DNA of 64,000 nt from Pyropia yezoensis (Eukaryota; Rhodophyta; Bangiophyceae; Bangiales; Bangiaceae), in contig CM020620.1 in NCBI GenBank assembly GCA_009829735.1, positions 18,868,354 to 18,932,353 on the forward strand, read 5' to 3'. Positions 7,136-62,923 of this stretch are shown one piece after another. Every line of letters begins with the position of its first letter. The stretch's first letter is position 1. Made by a program: the position numbers and the translations under genes. The notes under the pieces are model-generated. The model worked only from the letters and a program-made list of their open reading frames with translations. It did not search any database and was not told the DNA's origin.

Positions 7136-7142
7136 GAGGAAG

Positions 7143-39564: not shown

Positions 39565-39565
39565 T

Positions 39566-39583: not shown

Positions 39584-39789
39584 CGGGTTTCCGTCACCCT
39601 TGTGGTGACGCCGTCTTCGGCCCTGGCACACGGATAGGGATCCGGTCCTTTTCTTGTACTCGTGGTGTTGCGACCTGATCGATTGTGTTGAGCTCTTACC
39701 TGTGACTGTGATCTACTGTTACTCTCCCCAATCTACCCCCTCGCTCTCTTATTCGTGGTGATTGTTACGTCGGTTGACTGATTGTAACC

Positions 39790-41973: not shown

Positions 41974-41981
41974 GAGGAAGG

Positions 41982-44900
41982 ATGACCGGGGGGCGCTGGG
42001 GTAACCCAAGCAAGCCACCCCGGAGTACCGCGGGGAAAGCCCCACGGAGAGCGCGGTTGAGCTGACGCCGCATCAACCTCCGGGTACACCTTCCGGCCCC
42101 GACGACACGGCGTCAGGGGATTGATGACCAACCACCAAGGTTGGGAGGAGAGGACGGGAAGCCCCGTCACATGGAACCAGCCAAGGGCCCTGTCCAGGAT
42201 GCCTGAGCTACACCGGATATCGGTGTAGGCCACGTACTGTTTACCTTGGAGAACTTCAAGGTATCAGCCACACTGGGGGTTGACCCCCAGTCGACACGAT
42301 CGTACTACCCTGGACTGGATACAGGGGCTGGACCTAACCTTATCCGGAAGGATACCCTCCCGGACAAGGGGCTTCCGCGAGTCAGACTGACTCGGGGACC
42401 CACCATCAAGGATGCGAATGGTCGTCTCATTCGTACGACCGCAGCGATGTCGCTGCGGGTTACCATCGGGGAACTTACTACTGAAGTTGACTTCCTGGTA
42501 TGTGAGACGCTATCGGTGCCCTGCATACTGAGGTGCACCTTTATCAACGTCCACGTTGATGCAATCCGGCCAGGCCGGAGGACCGTCGAGCTTCAAGAAG
42601 CCGACGGGACGAAGCGAGGACACACGGCTATCGTCAGGGACCTGACGCAACACGGGAGCCACGTTAATGTGGATGAGGTGTACGCCAGTGTAGAACCGAA
42701 GACACTTCGGTTGGCCAAGCGAACTCGCGTTGAGCCGTTGTCGGAGACAGTCCTCCCGGTTAACTGTGACCTCGCAGGCGTCTGCAGAGTCAAGTCCAAC
42801 TTGCGGACGTACAAGCGCCATGGGTTGACCATGGCCAACGGTCTCATAGACCTCGCATCAGGAGGGTCGTCCCTCTTAGTGATGGCGAACTATCGCCGTA
42901 AGGCAGTCACCCTCCCGAAGGGAACTATCCTCGGGATTGCCGAGCTCTACGAAGGAGATATCCTTACCCCTGAAAAGGAAGGTCAAGTGGACCCACTTGA
43001 GGTACTGGCGGTCGCCGAGACCACCGAGCGACAGCAACCCGATGACGGGAAGCCTAGTCGACCATCATTACCGGCGGATATTCCGCCGAAGGACCAAGAA
43101 GCATTGAAGGCACTGGCCGAGGCTGACCTCGACCACCTTCCCCCTTCCGTAGCCGAAGGGGTACGACGGATGCTAAGAAAGCATGACGTCATGTGGACAG
43201 GCGGAGCCCTGGGTACCATTGGGGCAACCCAACATCGTATTGACCTGGTACCAGGCGCACGCCCCGGCCGGTCACAACCGCACCGAGCGGGACCTATGCA
43301 ACGAGAGATCGTTGATGGAGAAGTGAAGAGGATGAGCGAAGCGAAGGTGATACGACCTTCGATGTCGGAATGGGGTGCCCCAGTCGTTATCGTACCGAAG
43401 AAGGATCAAGCCCCTCGGTTTTGCATCGATTATCGACGCCTAAAATTGGTTACCAAGAAAGACTCATACCCTTTACCAAGGATGGATGAATGCATCGACT
43501 CCCTGGGGGAAGCTACGGTGTTTACCACCATCGACTGCAATGCCGGATACTGGCAGATCCTGGTGGCGGACGAGGATATCCCCAAGACGGCATTCGTCTG
43601 TCACAGTGGAGTGTACGAGTTCCTAAGGATGCCCTTCGGATTGTCCAACGCCCCCGCTACATTCCAGCGGGCTATCGACATTATACTGTCGGGGGTGAAG
43701 TGGCGTAACTGCCTAGTGTACATCGATGACGTCATCGTCTTCTCGTGTAACATGGATGACCATGTGCAACATGTTGACGAGGTACTCACCCTCTTGCGGA
43801 ACGCCGGGGTAACCCTGTGTCTGAAGAAGTGCGCCTTCTTCCAACAGACGGTCGAGTATCTGGGCCACCAGATAACCCCTGGTAAACTAGGGGTACTCGA
43901 AGCCAATACCCGGGCACTCCGGGATGCCCGGTTCCCTAACACCCAGACGCAGCTCAAGAGCTTCCTGGGAATGTGCAACGTATACCGACGGTTCGTCAAG
44001 GACTTCGCTCGGATAGCTAAACCGTTAACGGTTCTTACGAGCAGTACCTTACCCAAGGTACTCCAACCCCCTTCGCCTAGCGAAGAGGAGGCATTCGAGT
44101 CGCTGAAGCGAGCCCTACTATCCCCACCCGTCCTTGCGTTACCGCACAGACGGGGTACCTTCGTCATCGATGTCGATGCATGCGATACCCAAGTGGGATG
44201 CACCCTGCTACAGGGGGAGACGTTGATCGGTTCCGATAACGTTATCCCGGACCTACGTCCGGTAGGATACTTCAGCCGGACACTCAACCCGGCTGAGCGT
44301 AACTATAGTGCCACCGAGCGTGAGTGCCTCCGGGTTATATGGGCAGTGCAACTGCTCCGTCCATACCTGGAGGGCTCCAGGTTCATCGTGAGGTCCGACC
44401 ACGAACCCCTACCCTGGCTCCTCAACCTTGGTGACAAGGATTCCGATAGCCATGGAAGGCTAGCCCGATGGAGGCTGAAGATGGCCGAGCACGACTATCG
44501 TACCGTGTATAAGGCTGGGTCAACCCACCACCTCGGAGACGCGCTGTCTCGGCTCGACACCCCGAGCGGGGATACCCGCCCGGTGGACGAGGACATCCCG
44601 GTGGTACCAGTCTGCGTGTTGGGTAACGCCACCCAAGGTATGGTTGACCATACCATGGCACACCGAGCATGCCCACTGACTCCGGCGGACTTCCGCGAGG
44701 CACAAGCCAATGACGACGACTGTAGACGTCATCGCGCTAACCTCCTGGCCGGTACGGCCGGCATCTTCTCCGCGAACGAAGACGGACTCATATACCGGCG
44801 GGCACCCGCCGATGGACGACATCAAGTCGTGGTTCCCGTGTCCTTACGGCAAGCCGTCATGGAACGAGAACACGAGAAACCTACAGCCGGACACCCGGGG

Positions 44901-46148
44901 GGTTCACGTATGTTCGCAGCAATGCGAAGGTTCTTCTACTGGCCAGCAATGGCCGTCGACGTGGTCGACCACGTAAGGGGATGCCACCCCTGTGCACGTA
45001 ACCGCATGAGTCTACATAGGCAGGCGTCTGCCATGAGACTGTTCCCACCTGATGGGCCCAACGAGCAGGTCCCTATCGACATACTCGGGCCACTTCCGGT
45101 AACGGAAGAAGGGAACAGGTACATCCTGGTCATGTCTGACCGATTCACTAAGCTGTCACGAGCGGCAGCCATCCCGAATGATACGGCATACACAATCATG
45201 AACGCAGTGGTTGACCACTGGATCAGTGCATACGGAGTCATGAAGCAACTCCTCTCCGACAACGGAGCAAACCTGACGTCTGCATTCTGCACTATGGTCA
45301 TGGGCATGTTCGGCATCGAACCACGTCGGGCATCCGACTACCACCCGCAAACCAACGGGCAGGTGGAGCGGTTCATCCGCACCATCTTCAAGATGCTACA
45401 GTGCTACGTGGCCGAGCACACGAACACTTGGGACAGGCTTCTGTCCGTACTCACCCTGGCATACAATGCCAGGCCACATCGGAGCACAAACATCGCTCCG
45501 CTGGAGTGGGTCATGCCACTAGGGGTCGGTAACCTGACGCTGCCACCAGGCAGCTGCACTCGGTATGATACACCGAAAGGCCGACCGGCCGAACGTATCC
45601 ACCTAGCTTGGTTGGCCAAGCTATCGTGGATGACTCCTAAGCTCAAGGGTGCCCTTGACGAAACACAACTTCGATATAAGAAGAACTTCGACGCCCGACT
45701 ACGGGTGCGCAACGCTACCCTGATGACAGGCGACTGGGTCTATATCAGACACCAGAAGTTCCGAGGGAACAAGCTCATGCAACCGGTCAAGGGACAGTAC
45801 CAGATCCTCCACAGGGATGACCACTCGGCTATCCTCCAGTCCGATACGGAGATCCAACGCATCAGCGTGAATGATGTCACACCTGCTCCGAAGCCGGAAC
45901 AGCCTCAGCCGGTACCGGCTGGGTTGCTACATGAAGCTCTTACAACCCACCGGTCAGATGACCCGGTGGGACCGGATGGGATTCCATAGCAAGTAGAGAG
46001 CGTGGTCGGACACACCGACCCGGACCTACCAGGACCCTGGTACGTGAAGGTTATGTGGGTCGGATACGACTCACCCACCTGGGAACAGGCGGCAAATTTA
46101 CCCCGCCAACTCCTCATGCCTTACATGAGGCGACGACGCCTACTGTAA
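41982..46148 (+). CDS. pol: B2 pol region with chromodomain (fossil)
   Basis: Protease (DTGAGPNLIRKD near 42,318), RT (VYIDDVIVFS near 43,718-43,748), RNase H, integrase with HHCC and DDE blocks (IDILGPLPV, LLSDNGANLTS, NGQVERF) and a C-terminal chromodomain. Almost the same as B3 pol through RT and integrase. Broken, but with long intact stretches. Confidence 0.9.
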
Positions 46149-46227
46149 CAACCCAACCGACACCGACTTCGGCTGTTGGGGGGTGAGGCTTATACCTACT
46201 AAGTAGGGTGGGACATGGTTACGGCAG

Positions 46228-46420
46228 ACTTAGGTTTCTAAGTCGAACCAAGCTTAGGCAACTAAGTAGAGTCAAGCTTAGGTAACTAAGTAAAACCTGA
46301 ACCTTTATAAGTTAACTTAAAGGTAAAGGCTAACTTCGATAATATCGAAGTAACTAGGGGGCTTACACGGGAGGATGACCTCCCCTAGCCAAGACACAAA
46401 GTGAGGGAGGATGACCTCCC
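46228..46420 (+). repeat. Hairpin array between convergent genes, B2
   Basis: Three hairpins with CTTAG/CTAAG arms and 4-base loops start at 46228, 46252 and 46276 (24-bp spacing). A 17-base palindrome CTTCGATAATATCGAAG follows at 46334-46350, then two identical hairpins GGGAGGATGACCTCCC (46369-46384 and 46405-46420). Confidence 0.62.
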
Positions 46421-46619
46421 CAAGCATGAACCAACCGGAAGAAGTTGGGCGGGAGGCAAGGCACCACTGAGCCAGAAGGGGTACTCCCCAGGGCAGCAAA
46501 CAGAGGCAAGCAATGCCCCCAAAGGGGATGAGTTTATACTCACTACTACCCAGCCACCATAAGGGTCACCGGTGCCCTCTCCCGCACTTACAATAGCGCT
46601 CCTCAGTGGGTAGACCCAC

Positions 46620-48972
46620 TGCCCGAGGGAGGCCACTCACGCGTAATCGCGTATACCTCCGTGCTCTACCGGTCGGCAATCTCACGACGGTCAATCACCC
46701 GAGTTACCTCGGTGCATAGCTGGACGAGGGTGCTGCGGCCAGCCTCCACGTCCTCCAGAGCTTTCTGGAGGCGGTCCAGCACTCCACCGAAGCAACGCGC
46801 TGACCCAACTAGCGCAGCACCTGGGGGGATATCCCCCCAGCTAACAGAGAGACCCTCCCGCATTGCGCGGGCAACAAGGGCGTCAACGCCCTCATACAGG
46901 AGACGGGGACCCCCGTCTTGTATGACAGGGGCGGGAGCGGACACTGGCGCAGCCAGAGGAGCCAGAGGAGCCGACACGGCTACCACCGGAGCCGGTGGCA
47001 CCTGATACGAGGCTCGGTAGGACCCTACCGAGCGGGCTCCACCGTAACCCCGGCGGGGCTCCGCCCGACGACGGGACACCTCACGCTCCCCACCCGCAGA
47101 GCCCCACTCTCGGGGACGACGGCCAACCGCCGCCGGTATCGGGTTACCGAACCACGGGGCAAGGACCTGAAGAGGGTCATGGATAACCATGGGAATACCC
47201 AGGTCAGAAACGGCCTCGGGGGACGCCCACCCATGGCAACTAGGCTCACCCGGCTGAGTACGCCGGATACGCAACGAGTGACGAGGCAAGGGGGTAGCCC
47301 CAGCCTGCGGGTCCCGGTACGGGGGAAGGGCCAACACCCCAGCCCAGTTCACGGCATCGTGAACAGCCAGCAGGGCCTCGAACTCCCGGGCCAACCCGGT
47401 CTTGGCAGCTATCAGGTCCACGCCCAACTGCGCGATGTGCCGACGGACACCCGTCGGAAGATGAAACAGGCGCCCCTGCCGGCGGACGGACAGCAAGAAG
47501 GAGGACGCCTGCCCGAGGGTAACCTCAAGGGTGAAGGTGCCCTGCAACGGGTGGACCGGCCGGGAGGCCAACACACTCCCGAAGTATCGGAGACAGGAGC
47601 CGGTGTCAAACCGGGAAGCAGGGGCGGGTTCCCACCCCTCCTGCCATAGCGGCGGGCGCACGGGAGTGTATACCGGCGCACGACCGTTGCCGGTCTGCAA
47701 CGCACACGTTATATCCGTGCGAAACGCATCCGCCATGACACCATGGTTACGTCGCCAGCTCGACGCCGACTTCAACCCCGCCATAGGCGGGTAGGGAGCC
47801 GTCAACGACAGATACGGGGATACCCCCGGGTAGTAATCAAAGTCGGGATACCGACCGGTACTGCCCACCGTCTCCCCAAACGCAACCGGCTCCGCCGCCG
47901 CCGCAATCCCCCGAGCACTAGCCGGGTAGTCAATCTCCCGCGGCAACGCGGGAGCAATCAGGTCGCATACCCCGAAGGCGGGGTCGAGGTAGACCTCACC
48001 CCGTCCCACCCGAGTACGCCAGAGCTGCGCATGCCGGTCGTCCGGCTAACTCAGGATCCAATGGTGTTCCACTCGCACCGCGTTCGGCTGGTTCACCAGC
48101 CGCATCAACTCCCGCTCCCAATTCGGGTCCACCTTGACGCACCGGGAGGGCTCTCCACGGGGATGGGGCAGGTGGAAGTCCACCCGCATCCGCTCATCGG
48201 ACTCCATTGACTTTTGTACAGTCAGGCCTCGAACCCGAGCCACCAAGTCGAACATCGACATGGCGGGTTGACCCGCCGCCACGGCGACGCCGCCACCCAA
48301 CGGGGCAACCCGGGCAGGACCAGGAAGAATAGGGGGCGCCGGGGGATGCCCCACCGGAAGAGGGGTCGGCGCCGGAGTCGCACGCGGCCGAGGAGGAAGA
48401 AGAAGGGCGGGCGCCCGCCCGGAGTAACTACCGGAGTCCACAGCCATCGGTGTAGACCCACCTTGACCGCCAGACGCCCGCGGCACCGCGGGCAGAGCAA
48501 CGCCGCCACCCGAGCCCGACGGGGGCACCTCGGGGGCAGCAGGGGTAGACCCGCCACCCGCAGCCGCGGATGAGCCACCCGGGCGGGCACCCGCGCCGTC
48601 TTGACCCGCCGTCCCGGTCGGGGTGCCACCATAACCGCCCGACACGCCGGCGACGCCGTCTTGAGGTTGAGCCGCGCCGGCACCGGCGACAGAAGCCATC
48701 CGGGCCGCCGGAGGAGTAGGGGTAGACGCAGCAGCTACCCGCGGTTGCCCGCCACCCGACGGAGCCGTCGTGCCGCTGCACACGGACGAAAAACCGCCCG
48801 GAGCACCGTCCGGGGCCACACGAACGGTCACCCGGTCGTCCTCGTCCTCCGACGAGCTCGCTAGGAAGCACTCGGCGGCAGTGGCGGAGACGGGAACGTC
48901 GTCCACCATCACCTCTTCCCCCTCTTCCGGCAGAAGGTCGTCCTCGCCCCCGGGTACCTGGGGTTCCGACAT
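46620..48972 (-). CDS. B2 antisense gene (aORF), fossil copy
   Basis: Homologue of the B1 and B3 antisense genes, starting at the ATG of MSEPQVPGGEDDLLPEEGEE (48972). It keeps the acidic start, Pro/Gly/Ala-rich linker, conserved core (RNHGVMADAFRTDITCALQT, FDTGSCLRYFGSVLASRP, LEVTLGQASSFLLS) and helical tail. It is close to B1 but only moderately like B3. The end near 46,620 is approximate. Broken. Function unknown. Confidence 0.75.
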
Positions 48973-49062
48973 GGTGCAACCGGGGTGGCAGGGGCGCCCC
49001 TTGCAGAAAAGCCGAGGCCGGCTCGACCCCGTACAGATAACGCTCGCACGGACGAGCCAGGG

Positions 49063-49086
49063 AAGCGCGGGCACCCGCGCTTATAA
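49063..49086 (-). promoter_or_regulatory. Candidate antisense promoter, B2
   Basis: TATA-like TTATAA on the minus strand (49081-49086) overlaps a palindrome with arms AAGCGCGGG/CCCGCGCTT (49063-49082), about 90 bases before the antisense start codon. Same layout as B1. Confidence 0.55.
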
Positions 49087-49320
49087 CCACACAGCTGGGC
49101 ACCAGCGATAGGGAAGCGCGGGACGACCCGCGCCAGCCGACCTACGAGGGCGCTCCCGCCAGGCACCTGGGGCGGGGCCACGCCCCCCCCACACGGGGTA
49201 ATTGAGGGGGGGTCACCCACAACCGCCCCCACGTAACGCGGGCAGCCCCCGCCCCCCACTCAATCGTCCACACGAGAGGGGCCCCCCTACCACCAGGCAC
49301 CCGGTAGCGGATCCGCTTGC

Positions 49321-49550
49321 ACCACCCCTCGGAAAGGGGGGTCGTGAACAGAAACCCGCATCGGGAATCTAACGGTCCGGAAAACGGATCGTGTGTTTAC
49401 CACACAAAGGGGGGCACCCCCCTCAGACAACCTCGAAAAGGGGTGTCTGTCGCGACGGGGCGCAAAGCCCCACCCGACTGGTAAACGGTCACGCGACCCA
49501 CTTACATTCGGTAACCCGAATGCAACTCGACCCGAGGACGGGCCGAATCT
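49321..49550 (+). other. Stem-loop cluster before the polypurine tract, B2
   Basis: Stems GTGTG/CACAC around TTTAC (49391-49405) and ATTCGG/CCGAAT around TAAC (49506-49521), together with G6-7/C6 and other short stems. The last stem is also present in B1, one pair shorter and with a different loop. Confidence 0.5.
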
Positions 49551-49562
49551 AAGGGGGGGATA
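49551..49562 (+). other. Polypurine tract of B2
   Basis: AAGGGGGGG then ATA, directly before the central LTR. Confidence 0.8.
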
Positions 49563-49924
49563 TGTAGCAATATGGTTGTCCGTATTGTGACCCTAATATT
49601 AGGGGGGCTACTTCTAATCCTTAACTTTCAATTGAGAGTCCGTACTGGTCACGGTATCTATAAGTTACGTATGACCAGAGGGACTTGCATCTTGGGGTGG
49701 AGGGTAGTTAGTAGTGACTCCGAGGGTTTATAACGAGGGGGCCGGCGGTGAATCCAACGCCGGCCAAGGCAGAACAACAAACCCCTCCCATTTGGGCTCC
49801 CATCTTGGTCCCGTGGCTTGCGCTCCAAGGACAGCAACCTTGGCCTCCCGGTGACGTTGGTGCCGATCCCCCTTGGTGAGTGTTCCCTAAGAGTGGACGT
49901 GCGACGGATTCCTATTGTGCTACA
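49563..49924 (+). repeat. Central LTR shared by B2 and B3
   Basis: 362 bp. It serves as the 3' LTR of B2 (preceded by a polypurine tract) and the 5' LTR of B3 (followed by a primer-binding site). Differs from the last LTR at one site. Confidence 0.93.
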
Positions 49925-49925
49925 T

Positions 49926-49943
49926 TGGTGGAGCAGCAGGGGA
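49926..49943 (+). other. B3 primer-binding site
   Basis: TGGTGGAGCAGCAGGGGA, 2 bases after the central LTR. Confidence 0.75.
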
Positions 49944-50149
49944 CGGGTTTCCGTCACCCGTGGGGTGACGCCGTCTTCGGCCCTGGCACACGGATAGGGA
50001 TCCGGTCCTTTTCTTGTACTCGTGGTGTTGCGACCTGATCGATTGTGTTGAGCTCTTACCTGTGACTGTGATCTACTGTTACTCTCCCCAATCTACCCCC
50101 TCGCTCTCTTATTCGTGGTGATTGTTACGTCGGTTGACTGATTGTGACT

Positions 50150-52333
50150 ATGTCTACCCAAGAGACTGAGAACGTTCAAGATGACGGATCGGCGTCGACG
50201 CCGACCCCGGAGGTGACTACGGGAACCGGGATCGGGTACCCGATCGACAGCATTGAGACGCCGATGCGCTCCGGTGCCGGATCGACGTTTGGCACGGCTC
50301 GGACGGCAGGAGGCGGGGGCCCGCCTCAACTGTCATCGACCGACCTCACTCCGCCGCCTCCTTCACCAGGGGATTCCCTGATGGCATCATTGGCCCGCAT
50401 CGAGGCCCGGTTCTCCGGACTCGACGCCCGTCAAGATCGGACGGAGGACGCAATGGCAGTGTTGATGTCAACACGCCACACGACGGGACCCCGACGTGTT
50501 CCTCCCACACCGGTACGGTTCGAACCGGCCGGACTACTTTCGGAGTCCACCAGGGTCAACCCCGGTGTTGCTACTCCTGGACAACCCCCGGACACAATGG
50601 GGTATGGATCCGACTCGTCGGCAGAGTTGGAACGGAGTCACACGGAGCGATACGCTCGGAGCACCCGAAGCGGACTCCGCGGACACGACCCGGCGGATAC
50701 CTACGCCGGTGGAGAGTCGGTTATTGGCGGAGGGGATACCCTCTAACAGTATCCCCACGACGAAGGAGGCCAGGCAACTCGGGTTCCCGAGGTGCCGACG
50801 CCTGAAGTACCATCTTCAGTGGTGGAAGCTATGACCGCGCAGGTAACTGCGAGCCTACTGAAGCGGATGGAGTCCGATGAGTTTGCTCATCAACTGGCTA
50901 AGCGACTGGATATCCAGGACGCTGACACGGAGATCGTCAACGAGGTCTTCCGGTCGGTTCTTACTCCGGAACGTTATTGTTTGAAGGACCGCTCTACCAC
51001 CGTATCGGAATCGATGCGTAATACGTCGCATCGGGCGATCCGCTCTATGCAGACCCTTATGAAGGGGGTCCCTATGTTCGGTGGGCCAAACGGACGCCCG
51101 TTGGCAGTCATCGACTTCTTGACTAGCTTCAAGGCAGCCGCGGACAAGGCGCTCGTCAACGAGGGGCTGGCCCTGGAGATCCTCCCGTTCTTTGTTGATG
51201 AACGGGTGCGAGGCATCTTTCGCAAGGCATCCCAGATGCCGGGAATGAGGGTCGCGGCCACCCCCATGGATTACCGTGGGATTCTCAAGGAGCTGCTGAG
51301 CAGTTACCTCAGTAAGGACAAGTGCGAGGACCACTACCGGGCCCTGCGCACTGCCACCGCCCAGAGCTGGGAGGATGAGGAGATGTTCGGACGACGGATC
51401 CAAGAGCTCGACTACGAGCTGGGGAAGCTCCTTGGAGAAGGGGAGCTACGGGCCATCCTGTTCGCAGGAGTACCCAACTACGTGCGGATATCCGCACGGG
51501 GCGCCAACACGGCACGGACGAACTTTAGTCGACTGATGCATATGTGCAAGTCCCTGGGGGACGCCTACCGGGTGCTACACCCGGAATGTGCCTTGGCCCC
51601 GAAGCCCAAGGGTGAGGGAGGCAATCCCAGTCTTACCCCGGTACCGAGGCAAGACAAGATGGAACGGAAGGCCGCACCGGTACTGGTGGCTACCGAGTAC
51701 GCCCCCTCGGGCGAGGAGGAACCACTGGTTGACCAGCAGGGCCACCTGCTGTTACCGGCTACGCCGGTGATTGATGAGCAAGGTACGGTAGCGTACATCG
51801 CTCCGGCGGGGACCCAGTTCCAGGTCAGCGAGGGCACGGGACAGCGCGTCCCGTATGTGCGGACTACGGGGTACTCCCCGGTGACGGGTAACCCTCACCA
51901 ACCCTTGCCAACATGGGCGGTGCGCACGGAGGCACCTCCGCAGATTGCGGGCCGACCCAACCGGTTGGGGGAGTCCATGTTCCGGTTGACCCAAGGACCC
52001 AAGGCCTACCAGGGAGCAGGCACTCGGGCGCCCGAGGGAGGCAACCGCAGCTACGGGGCTACCCCGATGCTAACTGAAGGGGGGACCGGCACGTCCGGAT
52101 GTATGTTGTGTGGGGATCCCCAGCACTGGGTGTCTTCCTGCCCACTTATCCCCGAGGAGTCTCGGAGGGCAGCGGCGCAACGCAAGGCATCCACAGGGGG
52201 GTATCCCGCCAGAGCACCCGGACCCGCACCGGGTAGGCAGCCAGCTCCAGGTGGAGTACTGGCCGTCGAGGAGGCACCTCCTCAGCCGGATGGCCCGGCG
52301 GACAGCACCCCACCAAGGGCGGGAAACGAGTAA
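50150..52333 (+). CDS. gag: B3 gag region
   Basis: Starts at ATG 50150 (MSTQETENVQDDG) and ends 8 bases before the pol frame opens. It holds the acidic N-terminus, capsid-like helices and a terminal zinc knuckle CMLCGDPQHWVSSC near 52,102-52,143. Gag and pol sit in different frames, an arrangement that families of this type bridge by frameshift, reinitiation or splicing. The element's roughly one break and other features are given under the array entry. Confidence 0.86.
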
Positions 52334-52341
52334 GAGGAAGG

Positions 52342-55300
52342 ATGACCGGGGGGCGCTGGGGTAACCCAAGCAAGCCACCCCGGATTACCGCGGGGAAAGC
52401 CCCACGGCGAGCGCGTTTGGGCCGACGCCGCATCAATCCCCGGGTACACCTTCCGGCCCCGACGACACGGAGTCAGGGGAATGATGAGAATCCCCCGATA
52501 ACGGAAGGCGAGGACGGGATGCTCCGTCACGTTGAACCAGCCAAGGGCCCTGTCCAGGATGCCCGAGGAACACCGGATATCGGTGTAGGACATGTGCTGT
52601 TTACCTTGGAGAACTTCAAGGTATCAGCCACACTGGGGGTTGACCCCCAGTCGACACGATCGTACTACCCTGGACTGGATACAGGGGCTGGACCTAACCT
52701 TATCCGGAAGGATACCCTCCCGGACAAGGGGCTCCCGCGAGTCCGAGTTGCTCGGGGACCCACGATCAAGGATGCGAATCGTCGTCTCATTCGTACGACC
52801 GCAGCGATGGCGCTGCAGGTCACCATCGGGGAACTCACTACGGAAGTTGACTTCCTGGTGTGTGAGACCCTATCGGTGCCCTGCATACTGAGGTGCACCT
52901 TTATCAACGTCCACGTTGATGCAATCCGGCCAGGCCGGAGGACCGTCGAGCTTCAAGAAGCCGACGGGACGAAGCGAGGACATACGGCTATCGTCAGGGA
53001 CCTGACGCTACAAGGGAGCCACGTTAACGTGGCTGAGGTGTACGCAAGTGTCGAGCCGAAGACACTTCGGTTGGCCAAGCGAACTCGCTTTGAGCCGTTG
53101 TCGGAGACAGTCCTCCCGGTTAACTGCGACCTCGCAGGCATCTGCAGAGTCCGGTCCAACCTGCGGACGAACAAGCGCCATGGGTTGACCATGGCGAACG
53201 GTCTCATAGACCTCCCAGCAGGAGGGTCGTCCCTCCTAGTGATGGCGAACTATCGCCGTAAGGCAGTCACCCTCCCGAAGGGAACTATCCTCGGGATTGC
53301 CGAGCTCTACGAAGGAGATATCCTTACCCCTGAAAAGGAAGGTCAAGCGGAACCACTTGAGGTACTGGCGGTCGCCGAGACCACCGAGCGGCAGCAACCC
53401 GATGACGGGAAGCCTACCCCATCGGCGCCTTCGGCGGACATGCCGGCAAAGGACCAAGAAGCACTGAAGGCCCTGGCCGAGGCTGACCTCGACCACCTTC
53501 CCCCTTCCGTAGCCGAAGGGGTACGACGGATGCTAAGAAAGCATGACGTCATGTGGACAGGCGGGGCCTTGGGTACCATTGGGGCAACCCAACATCGTAT
53601 AGACCTGGTACCAGGCGCACGCCCCGGCCGGTCACAACCGCACCGAGCGGGACCTATGCAACGAGAGATCGTTGATGGAGAAGTGAAGAGGATGAGCGAA
53701 GCGAAGGTGATACGACCTTCGATGTCGGAATGGGGTGCCCCAGTCGTTATCGTACCGAAGAAGGATCAAACCCCTCGGTTTTGCATCGATTATCGACGCC
53801 TCAACTTGGTTACCAAGAAAGACTCATACCCTTTACCAAGGATGGATGAATGCATCGACTCCCTGGGGGAAGCTACGGTGTTTACCACCATCGACTGCAA
53901 CGCCGGATACTGGCAGATCCTGGTGGCGGACGAGGATATCCCCAAGACGGCATTCGTCTGTCACAGTGGAGTGTACGAGTTCCTAAGGATGCCCTTCGGA
54001 TTGTCCAACGCCCCCGCTACATTCCAGCGGGCTATCGACATTATACTGTCGGGGGTGAAGTGGCGTAACTGCCTAGTGTACATCGATGACGTCATCGTCT
54101 TCTCGTGTAACATGGATGACCATGTGCAACATGTTGACGAGGTACTCACCCTCTTGCGGAACGCCGGGGTAACCCTGTGTCTGAAGAAGTGCGCCTTCTT
54201 CCAACAGACGGTCGAGTATCTGGGCCACCAGATAACCCCTGGTAAACTAGGGGTACTCGAAGCCAATACCCGGGCACTCCGGGATGCCCGGTTCCCTAAC
54301 ACCCAGACGCAGCTCAAAAGCTTCCTGGGAATGTGCAACGTATACCGACGGTTCGTCAAGGACTTCGCTCGGATAGCTAAACCGTTAACGGTTCTTACGA
54401 GCAGTACCTTGCCCAAGGTACTCCAACCCCCTTCGCCTAGCGAAGAGGAGGCATTCGAGTCGCTGAAGCGAGCCCTACTATCCCCACCCGTCCTTGCGTT
54501 ACCGCACAGACGGGGTACCTTCGTCATCGATGTCTATGCATGCGATACACAAGTGGGATGCACCCTGTTACAGGGAGAGACGTTGATCGGTTCCGATAAC
54601 GTTATCCCGGACCTACGTCCGGTAGGGTACTTCAGCCGGACACTCAGCCCGGCTGAGCGTAACTATAGTGCCACCGAGCGTGAGTGCCTCGGGGTTATAT
54701 GGGCAGTGCAACTGCTCCGCCCATACCTGGAGGGCTCCAGGTTCATCGTGAGGTCCGACCACGAACCCCTACCCTGGCTCCTCAACCTTGGTGACAAGGA
54801 TTCCGATAGCCATGGAAGGCTAGCCCGATGGAGGCTGAAGATGGCCGAGCACGACTATCGTACCGTGTATAAGGCTGGGTCAACCCACCACCTCGGAGAC
54901 GCGCTGTCTCGGCTCGACACCCCGAGCGGGGATACCCGCCCGGTGGACGAGGACATCCCGGTGGTACCGGTCTGCGTGTTGGGTAACGCCACCCAAGGTA
55001 TGGTTGACCATACCATGGCACACCGAGCATGCCCACTGACTCCGGCGGACTTCCGCGAGGCACAAGCCACTGACGACGACTGTAGACGCCATCGCGCCAA
55101 CCTCCTGGCCGGTACGGTCGGCATCTTCTCCGAGAATGAAGACGGACTCATATACCGGCGGGCACCCGCCGATGGACGACATCAAGTCGTGGTTCCCGTG
55201 TCCTTACGGCAAGCCGTCATGGAACGAGAACACGAGAAACCTACAGCCGGACACCCGGGGGGTTCACGTATGTTCGCAGCAATGCGAAGGTTCTTCTACT

Positions 55301-56508
55301 GGCCAGCAATGGCCGTCGACGTGGTCGACCACGTAAGGGGATGCCACCCCTGTGCACGTAACCGCATGAGTCTACATAGGCAGGCGTCTGCCATGAGACT
55401 GTTCCCACCTGATGGGCCCAACGAGCAGGTCCCTATCGACATACTCGGGCCACTTCCGGTAACGGGAGAAGGGAACAGGTACATCCTGGTCATGTCTGAC
55501 CGATTCACTAAGCTGTCACGAGCGGCAGCCATCCCGCATGATACGGCATACACAATCATGAACGCAGTGGTTGACCACTGGATCAGTGCATACGGAGTCA
55601 TGAAGCAACTCCTCTCCAACAACGGAGCAAACCTGACGTCTGCATTCTGCACTATGGTCATGGGCATGTTCGGCATCGAACCACGTCGGGCATCCGACTA
55701 CCACCCGCAAACCAACGGGCAAGTGGAGCGGTTTAACCGCACCATCGTTAAGATGCTACAGTGCTACGTGGCCGAGCACACGAACACTTGGGACAGGCTT
55801 CTGTCGGTACTCACCCTGGCATACAATGCCAGGCCACATCGGAGCACACACATCGCCCCACTGGAGTGGGTCATGCCACTAGGGGTCGGTATCCTGACGC
55901 TGCCGCCCGGCAGGTGCACTCGGTATGATACACCGAAAGGCCGACCGGCCGAACGCATCCACCTAGCTTGGTTGGCCAAGCTATCGTGGATGATTCCTAA
56001 GCTCAAGGGTGCCCTTGACAGAACACAACTTCGATACAAGAAGAACTTCGACACCCGACTACGGGTGCGCAACGCTACCCTGATGACAGGCGACTGGGTC
56101 TATATCAGACACCAGAAGTTCCGAGGGAACAAGCTCATGCAACCGGTCAAGGGACAGTACCAGATCCTCCACAGAGATGACCACTCGGCTATCCTCCAGT
56201 CCGATACGGAGATACAACGCAACAGTATGAACGATGTCACACCAGCGCCCAAGCCAGAACATCCTCAGCCGGTACCGGCTGGGTTGCTACATGAGGCGCT
56301 TACCACCCGCCGGTCGGAAGACCCGGTGGGACCGGATGGAATCCCGTACCAAGTGGAGAGCATCGTCGGACATACCGACCCAGACCTACCAGAACCCTGG
56401 TACGTCAAGGTCATGTGGGTCGGTTACGACTCACCCACCTGGGAACAGGCGGCGAATATACCCCGCCAACTACTCATACCGAACATAAGGCGACGCCGCC
56501 TCCTGTAA
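52342..56508 (+). CDS. pol: B3 pol polyprotein with chromodomain
   Basis: One long open frame of 1,388 codons. In order: protease (LDTGAGPNLIRKD, residues ~112-125); RT with GAPVVIVPKK, QILVADED, LRMPFGLSNAPATFQ and the catalytic VYIDDVIVFS (~575); RNase H; integrase with an HHCC zinc-binding part (GHPGGSRMFAAMRRFFYW, CHPCARNR); an integrase core with IDILGPLPV and NGQVERF; and a C-terminal chromodomain (VESIVGHTDPDLP, WYVKVMWVGYDSPTWEQ). Length and order are as in chromoviruses. Identity to B2 pol is very high, far higher than for the neighbouring antisense gene. Treated as a fossil regardless of its open frame. Confidence 0.92.
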   Translation: MTGGRWGNPSKPPRITAGKAPRRARLGRRRINPRVHLPAPTTRSQGNDENPPITEGEDGMLRHVEPAKGPVQDARGTPDIGVGHVLFTLENFKVSATLGVDPQSTRSYYPGLDTGAGPNLIRKDTLPDKGLPRVRVARGPTIKDANRRLIRTTAAMALQVTIGELTTEVDFLVCETLSVPCILRCTFINVHVDAIRPGRRTVELQEADGTKRGHTAIVRDLTLQGSHVNVAEVYASVEPKTLRLAKRTRFEPLSETVLPVNCDLAGICRVRSNLRTNKRHGLTMANGLIDLPAGGSSLLVMANYRRKAVTLPKGTILGIAELYEGDILTPEKEGQAEPLEVLAVAETTERQQPDDGKPTPSAPSADMPAKDQEALKALAEADLDHLPPSVAEGVRRMLRKHDVMWTGGALGTIGATQHRIDLVPGARPGRSQPHRAGPMQREIVDGEVKRMSEAKVIRPSMSEWGAPVVIVPKKDQTPRFCIDYRRLNLVTKKDSYPLPRMDECIDSLGEATVFTTIDCNAGYWQILVADEDIPKTAFVCHSGVYEFLRMPFGLSNAPATFQRAIDIILSGVKWRNCLVYIDDVIVFSCNMDDHVQHVDEVLTLLRNAGVTLCLKKCAFFQQTVEYLGHQITPGKLGVLEANTRALRDARFPNTQTQLKSFLGMCNVYRRFVKDFARIAKPLTVLTSSTLPKVLQPPSPSEEEAFESLKRALLSPPVLALPHRRGTFVIDVYACDTQVGCTLLQGETLIGSDNVIPDLRPVGYFSRTLSPAERNYSATERECLGVIWAVQLLRPYLEGSRFIVRSDHEPLPWLLNLGDKDSDSHGRLARWRLKMAEHDYRTVYKAGSTHHLGDALSRLDTPSGDTRPVDEDIPVVPVCVLGNATQGMVDHTMAHRACPLTPADFREAQATDDDCRRHRANLLAGTVGIFSENEDGLIYRRAPADGRHQVVVPVSLRQAVMEREHEKPTAGHPGGSRMFAAMRRFFYWPAMAVDVVDHVRGCHPCARNRMSLHRQASAMRLFPPDGPNEQVPIDILGPLPVTGEGNRYILVMSDRFTKLSRAAAIPHDTAYTIMNAVVDHWISAYGVMKQLLSNNGANLTSAFCTMVMGMFGIEPRRASDYHPQTNGQVERFNRTIVKMLQCYVAEHTNTWDRLLSVLTLAYNARPHRSTHIAPLEWVMPLGVGILTLPPGRCTRYDTPKGRPAERIHLAWLAKLSWMIPKLKGALDRTQLRYKKNFDTRLRVRNATLMTGDWVYIRHQKFRGNKLMQPVKGQYQILHRDDHSAILQSDTEIQRNSMNDVTPAPKPEHPQPVPAGLLHEALTTRRSEDPVGPDGIPYQVESIVGHTDPDLPEPWYVKVMWVGYDSPTWEQAANIPRQLLIPNIRRRRLL

Positions 56509-56587
56509 CAACCCAGCTGACACCGACTTCGGATGTTGGGGGGTGGGCCTTAGACCTACTAAGTAGGGTGTGACATGGTTATGGCAG

Positions 56588-56785
56588 ACTTAGGTTTCTA
56601 AGTCAAATCGGGCTTGGGTTTCTAAGTCCAGCCAAGCTTAGATAATTAAGTAAAACCTGAACCTTTATAAGTTAACTTAAAGGAAGAGGCTAACTCCGAT
56701 AATATCGAAGTAAATAGGGGGCTTACAAGGGAGGATGACCTCCCCAAGCCAAGACACAAAGTGAGGGAGGATGACCTCCCCAAGC
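56588..56785 (+). repeat. Hairpin array between convergent genes, B3
   Basis: Three hairpins of the CTTAG/CTAAG type start at 56588, 56612 and 56636 (24-bp spacing, the last two with imperfect stems). A palindrome-like stretch (ctccgataatatcgaag) follows, then two GGGAGGATGACCTCCC hairpins near 56,730-56,780. Same design as B2. Confidence 0.6.
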
Positions 56786-57009
56786 ATGAACCAACCGGAA
56801 GAAGTTGGACGGGAGGCAAGGCACCACTGAGCCAGAAGGGGTACTCCCCAGAGCAGCAAACAGAGGCAAGCAATGCCCCCAAAGGGGATGAGTTTATACT
56901 CACTACTACCCGGCCACCATAAGGGTCACTGGGTCCCTCACTCTCACTCCCACAACCATCAGAAGGGGTTACCCCCGCCAGCAGAAGGGGGCCAGTCACG
57001 CGTCGTCGC

Positions 57010-59490
57010 TTACACTTCCGTACTCCAACGGTCGGCTATCTCACGCCGGTTGAGCGCCTGAGCTACCTCAGCGCTAAGATGCACCAGAGTGCTGTCACCA
57101 GCCTCCACAGCATCCAGAGCCATCTGTAGGCGGTTGAGCACCCAACCGAGGCAACGCGCGGTACCGACCAGCGCAGCAGCTGGGGGGATGTCCCCCCAGC
57201 TAACCGGAGGCGCCTCCGTCAACCCACGAGAGAGAAGGGCGTTAACGCCCTTATACCACAAGCGAGGACCCCCGTCGGGCATGACGGGAGCCGGCGATGC
57301 CACCGGAGGAACCGGAGCTACAGCCGGAGGAGTGGACACCGCCACCGCCGGAGGCGGCGGTTGCTGGTAAGGAGCACGGTACGACCGTGAAGGAGGACCA
57401 GACTCCTGGGCAGAACGCCCACCGGGAACCCGGTGGAACTCCCCACGACGACGATACGTCTCGCGGCCCCCACCAGTGGAGTCCCACTCACGGCGACGGC
57501 GACCCGTCCCCATAGGAGTCGGTTTACCGAGCCAGGGGGCTCCCAACTCGAGAGGGTCGGGCAGGACCACGGGAATACCCAGGCCGGGTACCGACTCGGT
57601 GGATGCCCACCCCTGGTAGCCATCCTCACCCGAGATAGCTCGGCGGATACGTAGCGAGTGACGAGGCAACGGGAGCGTTCCCGGTTGCGCGTCGCGGAAC
57701 GGCGGCAAGGTCGCCACCGCCGACCAGTTCACGGCATCGTGAACGGCCACGAGCGCAGTCAGCTCACGGGTTAACCCCGTCCCAGGAGCAATGGCGGTAA
57801 CGCCCAGCTCCCCAAGGTGCCGACGGACACCCGTCGGAAGATGGAAGAGCCGGCCCTGTCGGCGGGCCGACAACAGGAAGGAAGAAACCTGCCCGAGGGT
57901 AACCTCGAGGATGAAGACACCCTGCAGCACATGCGTGGGCCGAGCAGCCAGCACACTGCTGAAGTAGCGCAGGCAAGGACCGGTGTCAAACCGGAAAGCC
58001 GGGGCGGGCTCCCACCCCTCTTGCCACCCAGGCGGGCGCAACAGAGTGTATACGGGCGCACGACCGTTACCGGTCTGCAACGCGCACGTTACATCCGTGC
58101 GGAATGGGTCCGCCATGACACCATGGTTTCGAAGCCAGCCGGACGCCGACTTCAGGCCACCCATGGTCGGGAAGGGCGGCATCAGCCACAGATACGGGGG
58201 ATCCCCCGGGTAGTAATCCAAACCGGGATACCGGTTGGTACCAGGCACGAGCTGCCCGAAGGCCACAGGGGTCTGGGTGGCAGCCACCCCGCGGGCACCC
58301 GCAGGGTAATCCACCTCCCGCGGCAGCGCGGGGGCAACCAAGTCGCACACCCCAAAGGCGGGGTGGTGGGCAGCCTCAGGCCGCCCGACCCGGGCGCGCC
58401 AGAGTTGAGCATGCCGGTCGTCCGGCTGGCTGAGTATCCAATGATGCTCGGCGCGAACCGCGTCAGGCTGGGCAACCAGCCGAGCCAACTCCCGCTCCCA
58501 ACAAGGGTGCAACGGGACCGGACGGGAGGTACCTCCGCGGCGATCCGACGGGTGGAAGTCCACCCGCATCCGACCGCCCGAATCCATGGGCTCTTGCACG
58601 GTCAAGCTGCGCACCCGGGCCACCAGCTCGGAGACCGACAACGGGGGATGTCCCACCGTAGAGGCGTCGCCGCCACTCGCGGAGGCGGTACCGCCAACCG
58701 CAGAGGCGACGCCGCCACCGACCAAGCCAACGCGGCCACCCAACGGGGCAACCCGGGCCGGCCCAGGAAGAAGCGCCGGCGCCGGCGGAAGCCCAACCGG
58801 TAGGTGCACCGGCGCCGGAGCACGGGGACGAGGAGGAAGAAGTAGGGCGGGCACCCGCCCGGAGTAGCTCCCGGTGTCAACCTCCATGGGGGAAGGAGCG
58901 TCTTGACCGCCCGACGCCCGCGGCACCGCGGGTAAGGTACCGGCGCCGGCCCCACCCGTCGACGTCGCCCCCGCCTCGGAAGGGGGAGGCACTTGGACAA
59001 CCTCGGGAGCCTGATCACCAGCCGTGCGGGTACCCGCACTGTCTTGACAGGCCACCCCGGTTGTCGCGCCACCACCACCACCCGTGTCAACGACGGGATC
59101 GCGTTCAGGATGCACCGTCCGGACTCCCGGACCACCTTGCCCAGCCGGAGTCGGCCGGGGATCGCCACTTCCACCGTAGGGCGGGCCATCTTGGGGTAGC
59201 TGCGGCGAGCCGGCACCGGCACCAGGCTCCATCCGGGCAGCCGGGAGAGAGGGGGTAGAAGCCGCCACGAGCGGTAGACCGCCGGGTTGGCCCCCGACCG
59301 ACGGCACCGTCGTGCCACTGCACACGGACGACAGTCCTCCGGCCGCCAGATGGACGGATACCGCTGGCTCGTCGTCTTCAGACGAGCTCGTCCCGTATCG
59401 CGCGGCGGCAGGACCGACAGGCGCGTCGTCCTCCATCTCCTCCCCGATCAGGAGGTCTTCCTCCTCCCCAAGCACCTGGGGATAGGACAT
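57010..59490 (-). CDS. B3 antisense gene (aORF), whole, 826-residue unknown protein
   Basis: A complete minus-strand frame starts at ATG 59490 (MSYPQVLGEEEDLL). This start was chosen because MS[YDE]PQV is the first ATG shared by all three copies. The stop is TAA at 57,010-57,012. Residues ~8-45 are acidic. Residues ~45-280 are a Pro/Gly/Ala/Ser-rich linker. Residues ~284-650 are a conserved core (LVARVRSLTVQEPMDS, AEHHWILSQPDDRHAQLWRA, FRTDVTCALQTGNGRAPVY, FDTGPCLRYFSSVLAARP, LEVTLGQVSSFLLS, GRLFHLPTGVRRH). An Arg-rich stretch follows, and residues ~739-826 form a helical tail (LGWVLNRLQMALDAVEAG). It converges on pol. No family recognised. Antisense ORFs occur in some plant Tat-lineage gypsy elements, but I see no sequence likeness. 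It could bind nucleic acid or act in particle assembly or transport; this is unknown. Confidence 0.78.
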   Translation of the reverse strand: MSYPQVLGEEEDLLIGEEMEDDAPVGPAAARYGTSSSEDDEPAVSVHLAAGGLSSVCSGTTVPSVGGQPGGLPLVAASTPSLPAARMEPGAGAGSPQLPQDGPPYGGSGDPRPTPAGQGGPGVRTVHPERDPVVDTGGGGGATTGVACQDSAGTRTAGDQAPEVVQVPPPSEAGATSTGGAGAGTLPAVPRASGGQDAPSPMEVDTGSYSGRVPALLLPPRPRAPAPVHLPVGLPPAPALLPGPARVAPLGGRVGLVGGGVASAVGGTASASGGDASTVGHPPLSVSELVARVRSLTVQEPMDSGGRMRVDFHPSDRRGGTSRPVPLHPCWERELARLVAQPDAVRAEHHWILSQPDDRHAQLWRARVGRPEAAHHPAFGVCDLVAPALPREVDYPAGARGVAATQTPVAFGQLVPGTNRYPGLDYYPGDPPYLWLMPPFPTMGGLKSASGWLRNHGVMADPFRTDVTCALQTGNGRAPVYTLLRPPGWQEGWEPAPAFRFDTGPCLRYFSSVLAARPTHVLQGVFILEVTLGQVSSFLLSARRQGRLFHLPTGVRRHLGELGVTAIAPGTGLTRELTALVAVHDAVNWSAVATLPPFRDAQPGTLPLPRHSLRIRRAISGEDGYQGWASTESVPGLGIPVVLPDPLELGAPWLGKPTPMGTGRRRREWDSTGGGRETYRRRGEFHRVPGGRSAQESGPPSRSYRAPYQQPPPPAVAVSTPPAVAPVPPVASPAPVMPDGGPRLWYKGVNALLSRGLTEAPPVSWGDIPPAAALVGTARCLGWVLNRLQMALDAVEAGDSTLVHLSAEVAQALNRREIADRWSTEV

Positions 59491-59580
59491 GATAACGGGT
59501 GGCAGAATCCCCCGCGCCCACAAGCCGTTGACGGCTACGACCCGGTACGGGTACGGTGGGACAACCGGGACGAGCCAGGG

Positions 59581-59605
59581 AAGCGCGGGCACCCGCGCTT
59601 ATGAC
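59581..59605 (-). promoter_or_regulatory. Candidate antisense promoter, B3
   Basis: The same 20-bp palindrome (arms AAGCGCGGG/CCCGCGCTT, 59581-59600) lies about 90 bases before the antisense start codon. The TATA-like box reads TCATAA here. The palindrome and the bases after it are preserved even though the flanking cassette has diverged. Confidence 0.5.
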
Positions 59606-59840
59606 CACAAACAGCCACGAGAAGCGCCGCAGGCACGCGGGTCGACCCGCGTCCCACAACGCTACGAACGCGCTCCACCCAGGCACCTGGGCGGGACGGG
59701 GCCACACCCCCGTACGTGGCAACCAAGAGGGGTTCACACCGAAACCGCTCCCGCGAAAAGCGGGAGCGGCCGCCCCCATTCACTCGGTAACACGAGAGAG
59801 GCTCCCCTACCACAAGACACCTGGTGGCGGATCCGTTTGC

Positions 59841-60071
59841 ACCACCCCTCGGAAAGGGGGGGTCGTGAACAGAAACCCGCATCGGGAATTTGACGGTCCG
59901 GAAAACGGATCGTGTGTGTACCACACAAAGGGGGGCACCCCCCTCAGACAACCTCGAAAAGGGGTGTCTGTCGCGACGGGGCGCAAAGCCCCACCCGACT
60001 GGTAAACGGTCACGCGACCCACTTACATTCGGTAACCCGAATGCAACTCGACCCGAGGACGGGCCGAATCT
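59841..60071 (+). other. Stem-loop cluster before the polypurine tract, B3
   Basis: Nearly identical to the B2 cluster at 49,321-49,550, including GTGTG/CACAC and ATTCGG/CCGAAT stems. The sharp return of B2-like sequence here marks the edge of the divergent antisense cassette. Confidence 0.5.
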
Positions 60072-60083
60072 AAGGGGGGGATA
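60072..60083 (+). other. Polypurine tract of B3
   Basis: AAGGGGGGG then ATA, directly before the last LTR. Confidence 0.8.
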
Positions 60084-60445
60084 TGTAGCAATATGGTTGT
60101 CCGTATTGTGACCCTAATATTAGGGGGGCTACTTCTAATCCTTAACTTTCAATTGAGAGTCCGTACTGGTCACGGTATCTATAAGTTACGTATGACCAGA
60201 GGGACTTGCATCTTGGGGTGGAGGGTAGTTAGTAGTGACTCCGAGGGTTTATAACGAGGGGGCCGGCGGTGAATCCAACGCCGGCCAAGGCAGAACAACA
60301 AACCCCTCCCATTTGGGCTCCCATCTTGGTCCCGTGGCTTGCGCTCCAAGGACAGCAACCTTGGCCTCCCGGTGACGTTGGTGCCGATCCCCCTTGGTGA
60401 GTGTTCCCTGAGAGTGGACGTGCGACGGATTCCTATTGTGCTACA
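60084..60445 (+). repeat. Last LTR of the array (3' LTR of B3)
   Basis: 362 bp, one difference from the central LTR. It is followed without a matching target duplication by the transposase gene. Confidence 0.93.
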
Positions 60446-60446: not shown

Positions 60447-62923
60447 CATGCCTACGGAGCTCAGCGGGCGGACGTCAAGCGCGTGTTTGGGCTGTGCGCA
60501 CAGATGCTTGCACTGGCGCTGTACTCGGATGTGACGGTTGTAACCTCTTCTGGTAATACGTTTTCTCACAGGGATTGATTTTTGTACTGCCACACTGGGT
60601 GTCACTACTGACCGCATCATGACCTCATTTGCTGTCATCAGCACAGCTTGTGCTTTTCCATACGTGTCGTCGTAACTGGTACTGACGGAGCGTGGGAACT
60701 GTTGATTTGGCCATCGCTGTGTCGGCCCATTGTATTTCTTGCAGGTGTGTCTGCGTATCCGCTGCGAATGAGAGTGATGAACATCGTGACCAAGGAACCA
60801 GTATGGGTCGTCGTGGCATACATGCCCCAAGTACGGTCGCGGTACGAGGCAATGTCTTTTTCAAAGGCTGCAGAGGCTCGGGCGGAGATCCCCCAACGCA
60901 CCATCGCGCTGGTCTTTCGAGATACCATGCTCGCCAGTCATTTCGGTGCCGAGATGACGTTGCCGGACGGTGCCGTGGAGAAGATCATTCCGAGACTCAC
61001 ACTCTACGTGTCGGACCAGCCAGAAGAGCGGGACGTCTTGTGCCTCATGCGTCACGGCAGCGCGACGACTGCACGCCATGTATGGCACGCTCCACGTCGA
61101 GCGGGGTGCAGCCTTCCAGGAAGTATTCTCCAAAGAAGCGGAACGTGCTTAAGATTGTCAAGCTGCAGCTCAAGGGAGCGCTCATGCGGGGAATAAGGGG
61201 CAATGGTGTCATTATCAATGCCATTGAGACCGCCAACAGCATCCACTGCGTTGTACCTGCACTGGCCGCCTGGGCTGGACTCGGCTCTGGTCCGCTGCTG
61301 CTGTACCAGATCTTTGGGTTTGACCGACTACACGTACGTTCCATACTCCTGTGTTTCCTTGGTGATTGCCAGATGCTGCTTGCATGACGCTGCCGTACAT
61401 GTCATTGTCACGCATCTGTATTCTATCTTCTCTACATTTCTCTCATGCAAGAGGGCTGGTGGCACGTCACTCTTTCTCCGTAGCACGTACTGACTCGCAC
61501 AATCCTCTGCTTGCGTTCGTTGACGCTCTGTCCCCCACTTACTCCTTCCTTTGCCATTCGCAGGTCATGGACCTCGGCATCTGTAGAACGCTGACAACAG
61601 GTGTACATTCCTTTGCCCATGAGCTGGCCGGTTCGAAGAAGCTTTTGCACGGCACAGCGGGTGAGACTGTGCGTATCGCTAACAAGCGGTTCTTGTTCGC
61701 GATTCGCACGCACCGTGTCCCATCCATCTTCCCGTGGTAAGATTTGCTTGTCTTGAGAGCTTCATCCTTGTGACGCTGCTCCGTGAGATCTGATTGTATC
61801 TTGATGTCGCTACATTCCATTGGAGATGCATGCACTATATCTGACCGTTTTATTTGATCTCTAGTCACCGCCCTGGCTGGTTCTTGCACTTGATTCTCTA
61901 CAAATGCACCTCAGGTACTTCATCAAGAGTGGAGAGAAACACGCTACCTTGAAGGGTAAAGAGCACCGTGAGGCGGTTCACTTCTTGCCTTTCGAAGCTG
62001 CGGGCTTGTTCGGGCGGTCTGGGGCAGGAGGGCAGCATCATCGTCTCCTGACGTGGGTGCTCTGCGAGCTCGCCGCGACATTGAAGAGCGCCTTTGATGT
62101 GCGGCCGAAGACCTGGGCGGAAGCCAAGTCGGTATGTCGTCGTATGAGTCGTTGGATTGAGAACGACTACAAGCCCCTCGTTGGGCCCTCGCACACAACC
62201 AAGCTGCATCGCACAGTGTCGCCTCTACTGGACGAGTTCTTCCTTCGAGGCAACCTCCAGGACGGCAACACGGGCGTGAACGAGGCCCTGCACAAGTTGC
62301 TCAAGCTGGCTTCTACACTCACGAACAAGAGTCGTGATAACGCGGCATTGCAGATGGTGCTCACGGAGCAGATCGAGAGCGTCGTACGACTCTCACGACA
62401 GCGGCAGACATCAAAAGCGACTTCCAAGAAGGCGTCCAAATTGCGTCGTATGCGTGCCCGTGGGGCGCTCAGCTCCGTCTCCGACTTTGCAGCTGCGTCT
62501 GGCTTGGTGACATTGGACGAGGCCCTGCAGTGCGCTTCATCTAACTTCATCACGACGCAGTCCGGGACGTTGTTGCCAGACGCTGATATCCGTCGGGCGC
62601 GCGGCGATCGCATCATGGTCTGGGCCACCCCAGACCTGAAGGGACGCCCTTGGCATGACTGGGCTCGCTACCGGGCAGAAGACGGGACGGTCGGAGTGGG
62701 GCAGGCACGCGCGATTATTGCGGCCCACAACGGCACGCTCAGTCGGACGGTCGTGGTGCACTGTGCTGAGACCGCAAGCTCCGTGCCTGAGTGTCCTTTC
62801 ACGGCATACGGGTGCGAGAGGCTTGAGTGGTGCCACCAGGTTCGGGAGGGTAAGATACGCCCCACCCTTGTGGCCAGTTCTTTGCACAAGATCATTGACG
62901 TTCTCTGCGTGGAGCACGACTGA
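60447..62923 (+). pseudogene. Plavaka/KDZ-like DDE transposase gene, 3' part, spliced
   Basis: Four exon pieces keep phase across GT-AG introns: 60447-60552, 60745-61333, 61564-61736 and 61915-62923 (introns of 192, 230 and 178 bp). The product reads ADVKRVFGLCAQMLALALYS, DVTVVTSSG/VSAYPLRMRVMNIVT, RLTLYVSDQPEERDVLC, DCTPC, then PALAAWAGLGSGPLLLYQIF, GFDRLH/VMDLGICRTL, and a C-terminal block with NTGVNEALHKLLKLASTLTN. The DxPE, CxxC and DRLHVMDLG blocks have the order seen in the Plavaka/KDZ transposases of CACTA-like elements. There the DRLH..D block carries a catalytic Asp. The 5' part is missing because the last B LTR ends 1 base before the first exon piece. The frame shifts once within exon 2 near 61,062, so the gene is probably inactive unless that is a sequence error. 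Family assignment is by motif memory. Confidence 0.65.

Follow-up and report, generated by a model that had tools for sequence, protein, structure and literature searches.

The family B elements of the window

The locus lies in a window of 64,000 nucleotides of the genome of the red alga Pyropia yezoensis (contig CM020620.1), in which one family of LTR elements, here called family B, is present three times: B1 (4,371-15,081), B2 (39,203-49,924) and B3 (49,563-60,445). B3 has LTRs, a polypurine tract and the Pfam order RT, RNase H and integrase, which place it among the Ty3/gypsy elements, and it carries, between pol and the 3' LTR, a long gene on the opposite strand, whose end lies tail to tail with that of pol (Table 1).

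Table 1. Features of the family B copies, in positions of the window
Feature	Position	Strand	Remark
Antisense gene of B1 (type I)	11,813-14,131	-	two in-frame stops
Antisense gene of B2 (type I)	46,654-48,972	-	two in-frame stops
5' LTR of B3, also the 3' LTR of B2	49,563-49,924	+	
Gag-like ORFs of B3, upstream of pol	50,144-52,333	+	200 and 513 codons
pol of B3: protease-like, RT, RNase H, integrase, chromodomain-like end	52,342-56,508	+	1388 codons
Part of the spacer between pol and the antisense stop in B3	56,589-56,785		repeated palindrome-like units
Stretch of strong difference between types I and II	56,901-59,620		57-87% identity
Antisense gene of B3 (type II)	57,010-59,490	-	826 codons from the ATG
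Polypurine tract preceding the 3' LTR of B3	60,071-60,083	+	by reading
3' LTR of B3, TGTAGC...GCTACA	60,084-60,445	+	

The second of the gag-like ORFs has a weak zinc-knuckle match, which falls below the cut-off. At the C-terminus of the integrase, the chromodomain family PF00385 (cut-off 25.1 bits) scores 14.7 in B3, 16.6 in L051, a locus of a related family considered below, and 23.7 in family A, all below the cut-off, and this chromodomain-like end only suggests that family B is a chromovirus. Family A is present in the window as a copy that is interrupted by B1, with an LTR about 1.3 kb past the end of its pol match, and a tblastn comparison found no antisense gene in it (best E 0.21). When the integrases are read by eye, the usual acidic catalytic motif is altered at one position in B3, whose pol is open, and intact in B1, and given this departure B3 may be an inactive copy.

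B2 and B3 form a tandem with one common LTR, flanked by CTCGC and CCATG, with no matching target-site duplication. Elsewhere in the genome, three matches to the N-terminal module of the antisense gene (C1:23,856,816, 23,867,569 and 23,878,322) follow one another in steps of 10,753 bases, which suggests other whole-element tandems, and four antisense-gene matches in C2:9,880,067-9,892,399 are set at exact steps of 3,489 bases, far below the whole-element length, and here a part of the element is repeated in tandem. Two further ORFs of the window are an 827-codon frame on the minus strand (21,844-24,327), with 33-residue ankyrin-like repeats recognised by eye over 99-base repeats of the underlying DNA, and a 339-codon frame adjoining B3 (61,904-62,923), with no Pfam match above the cut-off.

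An antisense gene under protein-level selection

The antisense frame of B3 is open over 57,010-59,592 when counted from a GTG, and the ATG at 59,490 leaves the 826 codons given in an earlier, sequence-only reading of this DNA. The interval has a longest open stretch of 862 codons, whereas none of 1000 dinucleotide shuffles exceeded 606. That reading also placed the gene between pol and the 3' LTR of all three copies, and B1 and B2 do match the B3 protein at the same place (tblastn identity 60% over 836 columns each, 68-70% in the core) and keep the protein blocks it had quoted; its figure of a quarter of the core residues differing in B3, which does stay open, has to be raised to nearer 30%. 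Only the B3 gene is open throughout within the window, because those of B1 and B2 carry two in-frame stops each and are therefore decayed copies: the longest antisense open stretch is 363 codons in B1, inside the shuffle range (maximum 515 in 300 shuffles), and 459 in B2, slightly over the shuffle maximum of 413.

The indels that separate B1 and B2 from B3 are multiples of three in all ten cases inside the ORF, and out of frame in all four cases between 59,490 and 59,592 (4, 1, 1 and 4 bases), so that the start is taken to be the ATG at 59,490. In the antisense frame, dN/dS is 0.33 for B2-B3, 0.36 for B1-B3 and 0.42 for B1-B2, and the substitutions between B2 and B3 are distributed 175/138/299 over the three codon positions, with third positions dominant.

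An open frame might also arise by chance in GC-rich DNA, or as the by-product of some feature of the sense strand, in which case there would be no gene. The GC content of 60-69% in the region does favour long open frames, and one sense frame of the interval stays open for long stretches (360, 278 and 342 codons in the three copies), where the earlier reading had seen no common sense frame; this frame looks unselected, however, because its dN/dS is 1.00-1.36. The sense frame that shares its third positions with the antisense codons has a dN/dS of 0.45-0.50, but holds 16-21 stops, and, this frame excepted, the other frames of the three window copies show values of 1.00-1.54. A better-conserved sense frame is ruled out by these values and stops, as is an antisense dN/dS near 1, among the copies compared here.

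The genomic evidence comes from 40 copies (17 of type I and 23 of type II, the two types being described below), in which single-base codon variants only were counted. The variants common to at least two copies comprise 38 synonymous, 26 non-synonymous and no stop changes in type I, and 105, 78 and none in type II, while the singletons comprise 96, 129 and 3 in type I and 160, 369 and 10 in type II. Stops occur only as singletons, which points to selection during proliferation and to decay after insertion. Module by module, omega lies between 0.16 and 0.53, with bootstrap upper bounds below 1 in all 18 comparisons. Among the matches listed, 11 of the 21 full-length type II matches at 89-100% identity, and 80 of the 94 type I core places, are without a stop; counts of genomic places are lower bounds throughout, except for the two whole-genome marker counts given below.

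Relatives of the protein extend beyond family B. A large protein collection yielded at least 2 relatives with the B3 query and at least 20 with a four-sequence profile, 8 of the 20 being annotated hypothetical proteins of P. vietnamensis, the only named species among the matches listed. Another relative, P0130, matches the P. yezoensis genome at two places with 99% identity, and one of these, L051, represents a related family: its pol end has 82% amino-acid identity, and its antisense protein, with an open stretch of 850 codons, is 50% identical over 656 columns and has the same position and orientation as in family B. Two antisense genes of the related family (C2:9,532,685-9,533,626 and C2:9,542,978-9,543,919) are nearly identical, both open, and lie in opposite orientation about 10 kb apart.

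Judged from these comparisons, protein-level selection on the antisense gene, as the sequence-only reading had proposed, is shown, and the substitutions, the indels, the related family, the second species and the open genomic copies support the view that an LTR retrotransposon here has a genuine protein-coding gene on its antisense strand. The absence of a gene, which would have to accommodate a protein conserved, at about 50% identity, both in a related family and in a second species, is regarded as refuted on the patterns of substitutions, indels and shared variants, and keeps hardly any credibility.

The protein of B3 begins with an acidic segment (13 D/E in the first 50 residues), followed by a proline/glycine-rich N-terminal region, a conserved core at 330-640 (omega 0.16-0.31 in six comparisons), an arginine-rich stretch at 641-700 and a C-terminal helical bundle at about 764-826, which is predicted with confidence; the predicted fold has a mean pLDDT of 40 and is mostly unpredicted. 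No membrane-like segment is present, the highest 19-residue mean hydropathy being 1.5, and the core is probably soluble. An additional env-like ORF of the sense strand was considered and is ruled out by the antisense orientation and by the lack of transmembrane segments. Pfam searches with the B3 protein, at E up to 1 or 10, and with the L051 protein, at E up to 5, gave no family, nor was there an informative fold match for the former.

Types and modules of the gene

Identity between B2 and B3 is 90-100% in the LTR, in gag and in pol as far as about 56,160. It drops to 86-89% in the following part, which reaches to 57,039, and to 67-81% over 57,040-59,705, and is 99-100% at the 3' LTR. Synonymous divergence between the two copies is 0.02-0.12 in gag and pol against 0.70 in the antisense gene. 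Between B1 and B2 the relation is reversed, with 0.27-0.40 in gag and pol against 0.16 in the antisense gene. On these figures, the antisense gene of B3 is of a different type, set in a backbone that mostly resembles B2, and the divergence of B3 is not the simple drift of one gene; the sequence-only reading, which took the divergent but open frame of B3 as a sign of protein-level selection, was right about the selection and missed the two types.

The same contrast is found across the genome, where 12 of 20 type I and 12 of 30 type II loci were compared. Identity between the types is 88-96% up to about 56,890, falls over the stretch listed in Table 1, and returns to 88-97% beyond it. The fixed differences number 391 in the ORF, where those of the N module would drop if chimeras were counted in, and 12 in 59,490-59,620; on the other side there are 4 in 56,890-57,010, 3 in 56,500-56,890 and 9 in 56,150-56,500, and none occurs in 55,513-56,150 or in 59,620-60,080. 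In the 42 loci that have both parts (the gene in 47, the pol end in 45), the median dS between types is 0.79 in the antisense gene against 0.25 in the pol end. Within type II it is 0.10 against 0.22, although the loci L001-L050 were chosen by similarity to the B3 or B2 protein, which biases diversity within a type downwards. Over the whole genome, the type I core marker occurs at 814 places and the type II marker at 67, with reversed controls at 0 for both.

Such an island of divergence might be the trace of one late replacement, in which type II (or type I) was recombined in once from another family and then spread, the difference between types having no function. A related, diverged family with the gene is indeed present in the genome, type II is the rarer type, and a type II gene that is less diverged than its pol end is what a late cassette on varied backbones would leave, a result towards which the similarity-chosen sample is itself biased. 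Against it, type II has deep branches (L024, L030, L053 and L054), no donor family was found, and there are many chimeras in which a type II N module precedes a type I core; a single replacement is somewhat unlikely.

These chimeras become apparent when the protein of B3 is divided into an N module (about codons 1-215) and a core with the C-terminal part (about 216-826). Of the four type I core-marker loci L055-L058, two (L055 and L056) are of type II in their N-terminal part and of type I in the rest, and the crossover lies near codons 208-219. The N module of L056 has a dS of 0.16 to type II and 0.73 to type I, and the rest of its gene a dS of 0.74 to type II and 0.10 to type I. In at least seven further places, 417-426 bases separate a type I core match from a type II N-module match on the same strand; these are candidates, identified by their coordinates. 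The number of such chimeras indicates that exchange went on, and template switching between co-packaged RNAs of different types, in stretches where their sequences agree, would be expected to leave this pattern of modules. The 150 type I N-module matches listed fall into two groups relative to B2, at 90-100% and at 85-88% identity, so that the N module has further sub-types.

On the other hand, exchange has not been free, since the type is partly linked to the pol end. A tree of the pol end (45 rows) requires 2 changes of type, whereas shuffles require 15.3, and the pol end of B3 itself groups with type II; the exceptions are L010, a well-supported case of a type II gene with a B1-like pol end, and L047, which is weakly supported. 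Among the matches listed, 13 of the 40 best RT matches to B3 go with type II genes and 2 with type I, the other 25 being in neither set.

Possible roles and known systems

The reading preferred here, with a probability of roughly one half, is that Ty3/gypsy family B has in the antisense gene an accessory gene that acts in trans and is shuffled by recombination. The gene would be transcribed from its own promoter, located in the stretch of roughly 1 kb that separates the ATG from the outer edge of the 3' LTR, the product would act in trans on the RNA, DNA or particle of the element itself, either regulating it or serving as its cofactor, and template switching between co-packaged RNAs would shuffle the types and modules. 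That its role is an accessory one acting on the element is our best guess, and stays a guess; as a counterpoint, antisense RNA across the 3' end of the genomic RNA could trigger silencing.

The existence of two swapped versions hints at a job in the element that depends on the version of the gene. A single genome contains many copies, with selection evident from the variants that they share, a related family with the gene and another family without it, and natural swaps of type and module; given that these swaps sit on similar backbones, a comparison of type I, type II and chimeric elements can directly test the purpose of the antisense protein. In addition, the red algae would join the hosts in which LTR retrotransposons have antisense coding under selection.

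A more specific role would be self-control with type recognition, in which the antisense protein limits transposition of its own type, and a diverged type or a swapped module escapes, such that both types persist. The two deeply diverged types in one genome and one pool of backbones, which diverge only in the antisense gene and at its margins, and the chimeras of N and C modules are consistent with it. There is also a precedent: canonical Ty1 and Ty1' differ in gag and recombine, and canonical Ty1 tester elements are restricted by canonical gag only, according to the accessible part of the report (PMC7055915). The likeness to family B lies in two subfamilies that differ in one gene and recombine and, on this reading, in a control factor encoded by the element; the Ty1 control factor, as described there, is derived from gag on the sense strand, whereas family B has a separate antisense gene with a putative role. 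The counts show purifying rather than diversifying selection, however, and one late swap could leave the same island of divergence, so that a type-specific, self-encoded system of control or recognition, a retrotransposon counterpart of idiomorphs or incompatibility types, is a doubtful analogy. If it held, a new or rearranged type would escape control by the resident copies, and two ancient types and their chimeras would circulate on one pool of backbones.

The spacer between pol and the antisense stop brings in a further analogy. Its palindrome-like units, present in B3 and in B2 (46,229-46,425), are of the form CTTAG..CTAAG, at 24-base steps, and GGGAGG..CCTCCC, which occurs twice, 36 bases apart; 46 of 50 loci have at least one unit of the former and 43 of 50 at least one of the latter, and neither occurs in the 32 kb of the window outside the B elements. 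They are possible binding sites or hairpins. VANDAL elements are DNA transposons. Their VANC proteins, the targets of which often form tandem repeats (PMC5735166, in its accessible part), resemble the family B product as accessory proteins encoded by an element with repeats in its noncoding DNA. As VANC does for VANDAL elements, the antisense protein might bind the element's noncoding DNA and relieve host silencing, and the presence of units in most loci suits such anti-silencing. Family B elements, though, are LTR retrotransposons, their units are common to types I and II rather than specific to one, and the exact unit patterns are absent from the spacer of L051, which nevertheless has the gene; anti-silencing is accordingly improbable.

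The closest counterparts of the accessory gene preferred here are found in plants and fungi. As in B3, the plant gypsy elements Grande of maize, RIRE2 of rice, Retand of Silene and PvRetro13 carry, in many copies, an antisense ORF between pol and the 3' LTR (PMC7264820, PMC11963269). That of Grande encodes a nuclear protein and has an upstream promoter of its own, from which it is transcribed, and such antisense genes of LTR retrotransposons have, as the accessible text states, been described for years with their function not known (PMC7264820). The antisense proteins of Retand have a TRP28 domain (PF04195), of which Pfam detects none in the B3 protein; the B3 gene further differs from the plant ORFs in its red algal host, and two diverged types on one backbone, as in family B, were not met in the accessible parts of these papers (PMC7264820, PMC11963269). 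Boty-like elements of Botrytis are fungal gypsy elements with an additional antisense gene, brtn (PMC7264820; Zhao 2011 via PMC8365987, both in part), a likeness to the B3 gene drawn by description only.

An earlier survey reported no retrotransposon chromodomains in the red algae examined there (PMC3350952, accessible part), and searches of open-access papers yielded no antisense gene in a red-algal element. Searches of that literature, not aimed exactly at the question, found no description of alternative antisense types on one backbone. Antisense genes themselves are known in plant and fungal elements, and it is the protein family and the swapping of its types that look new.
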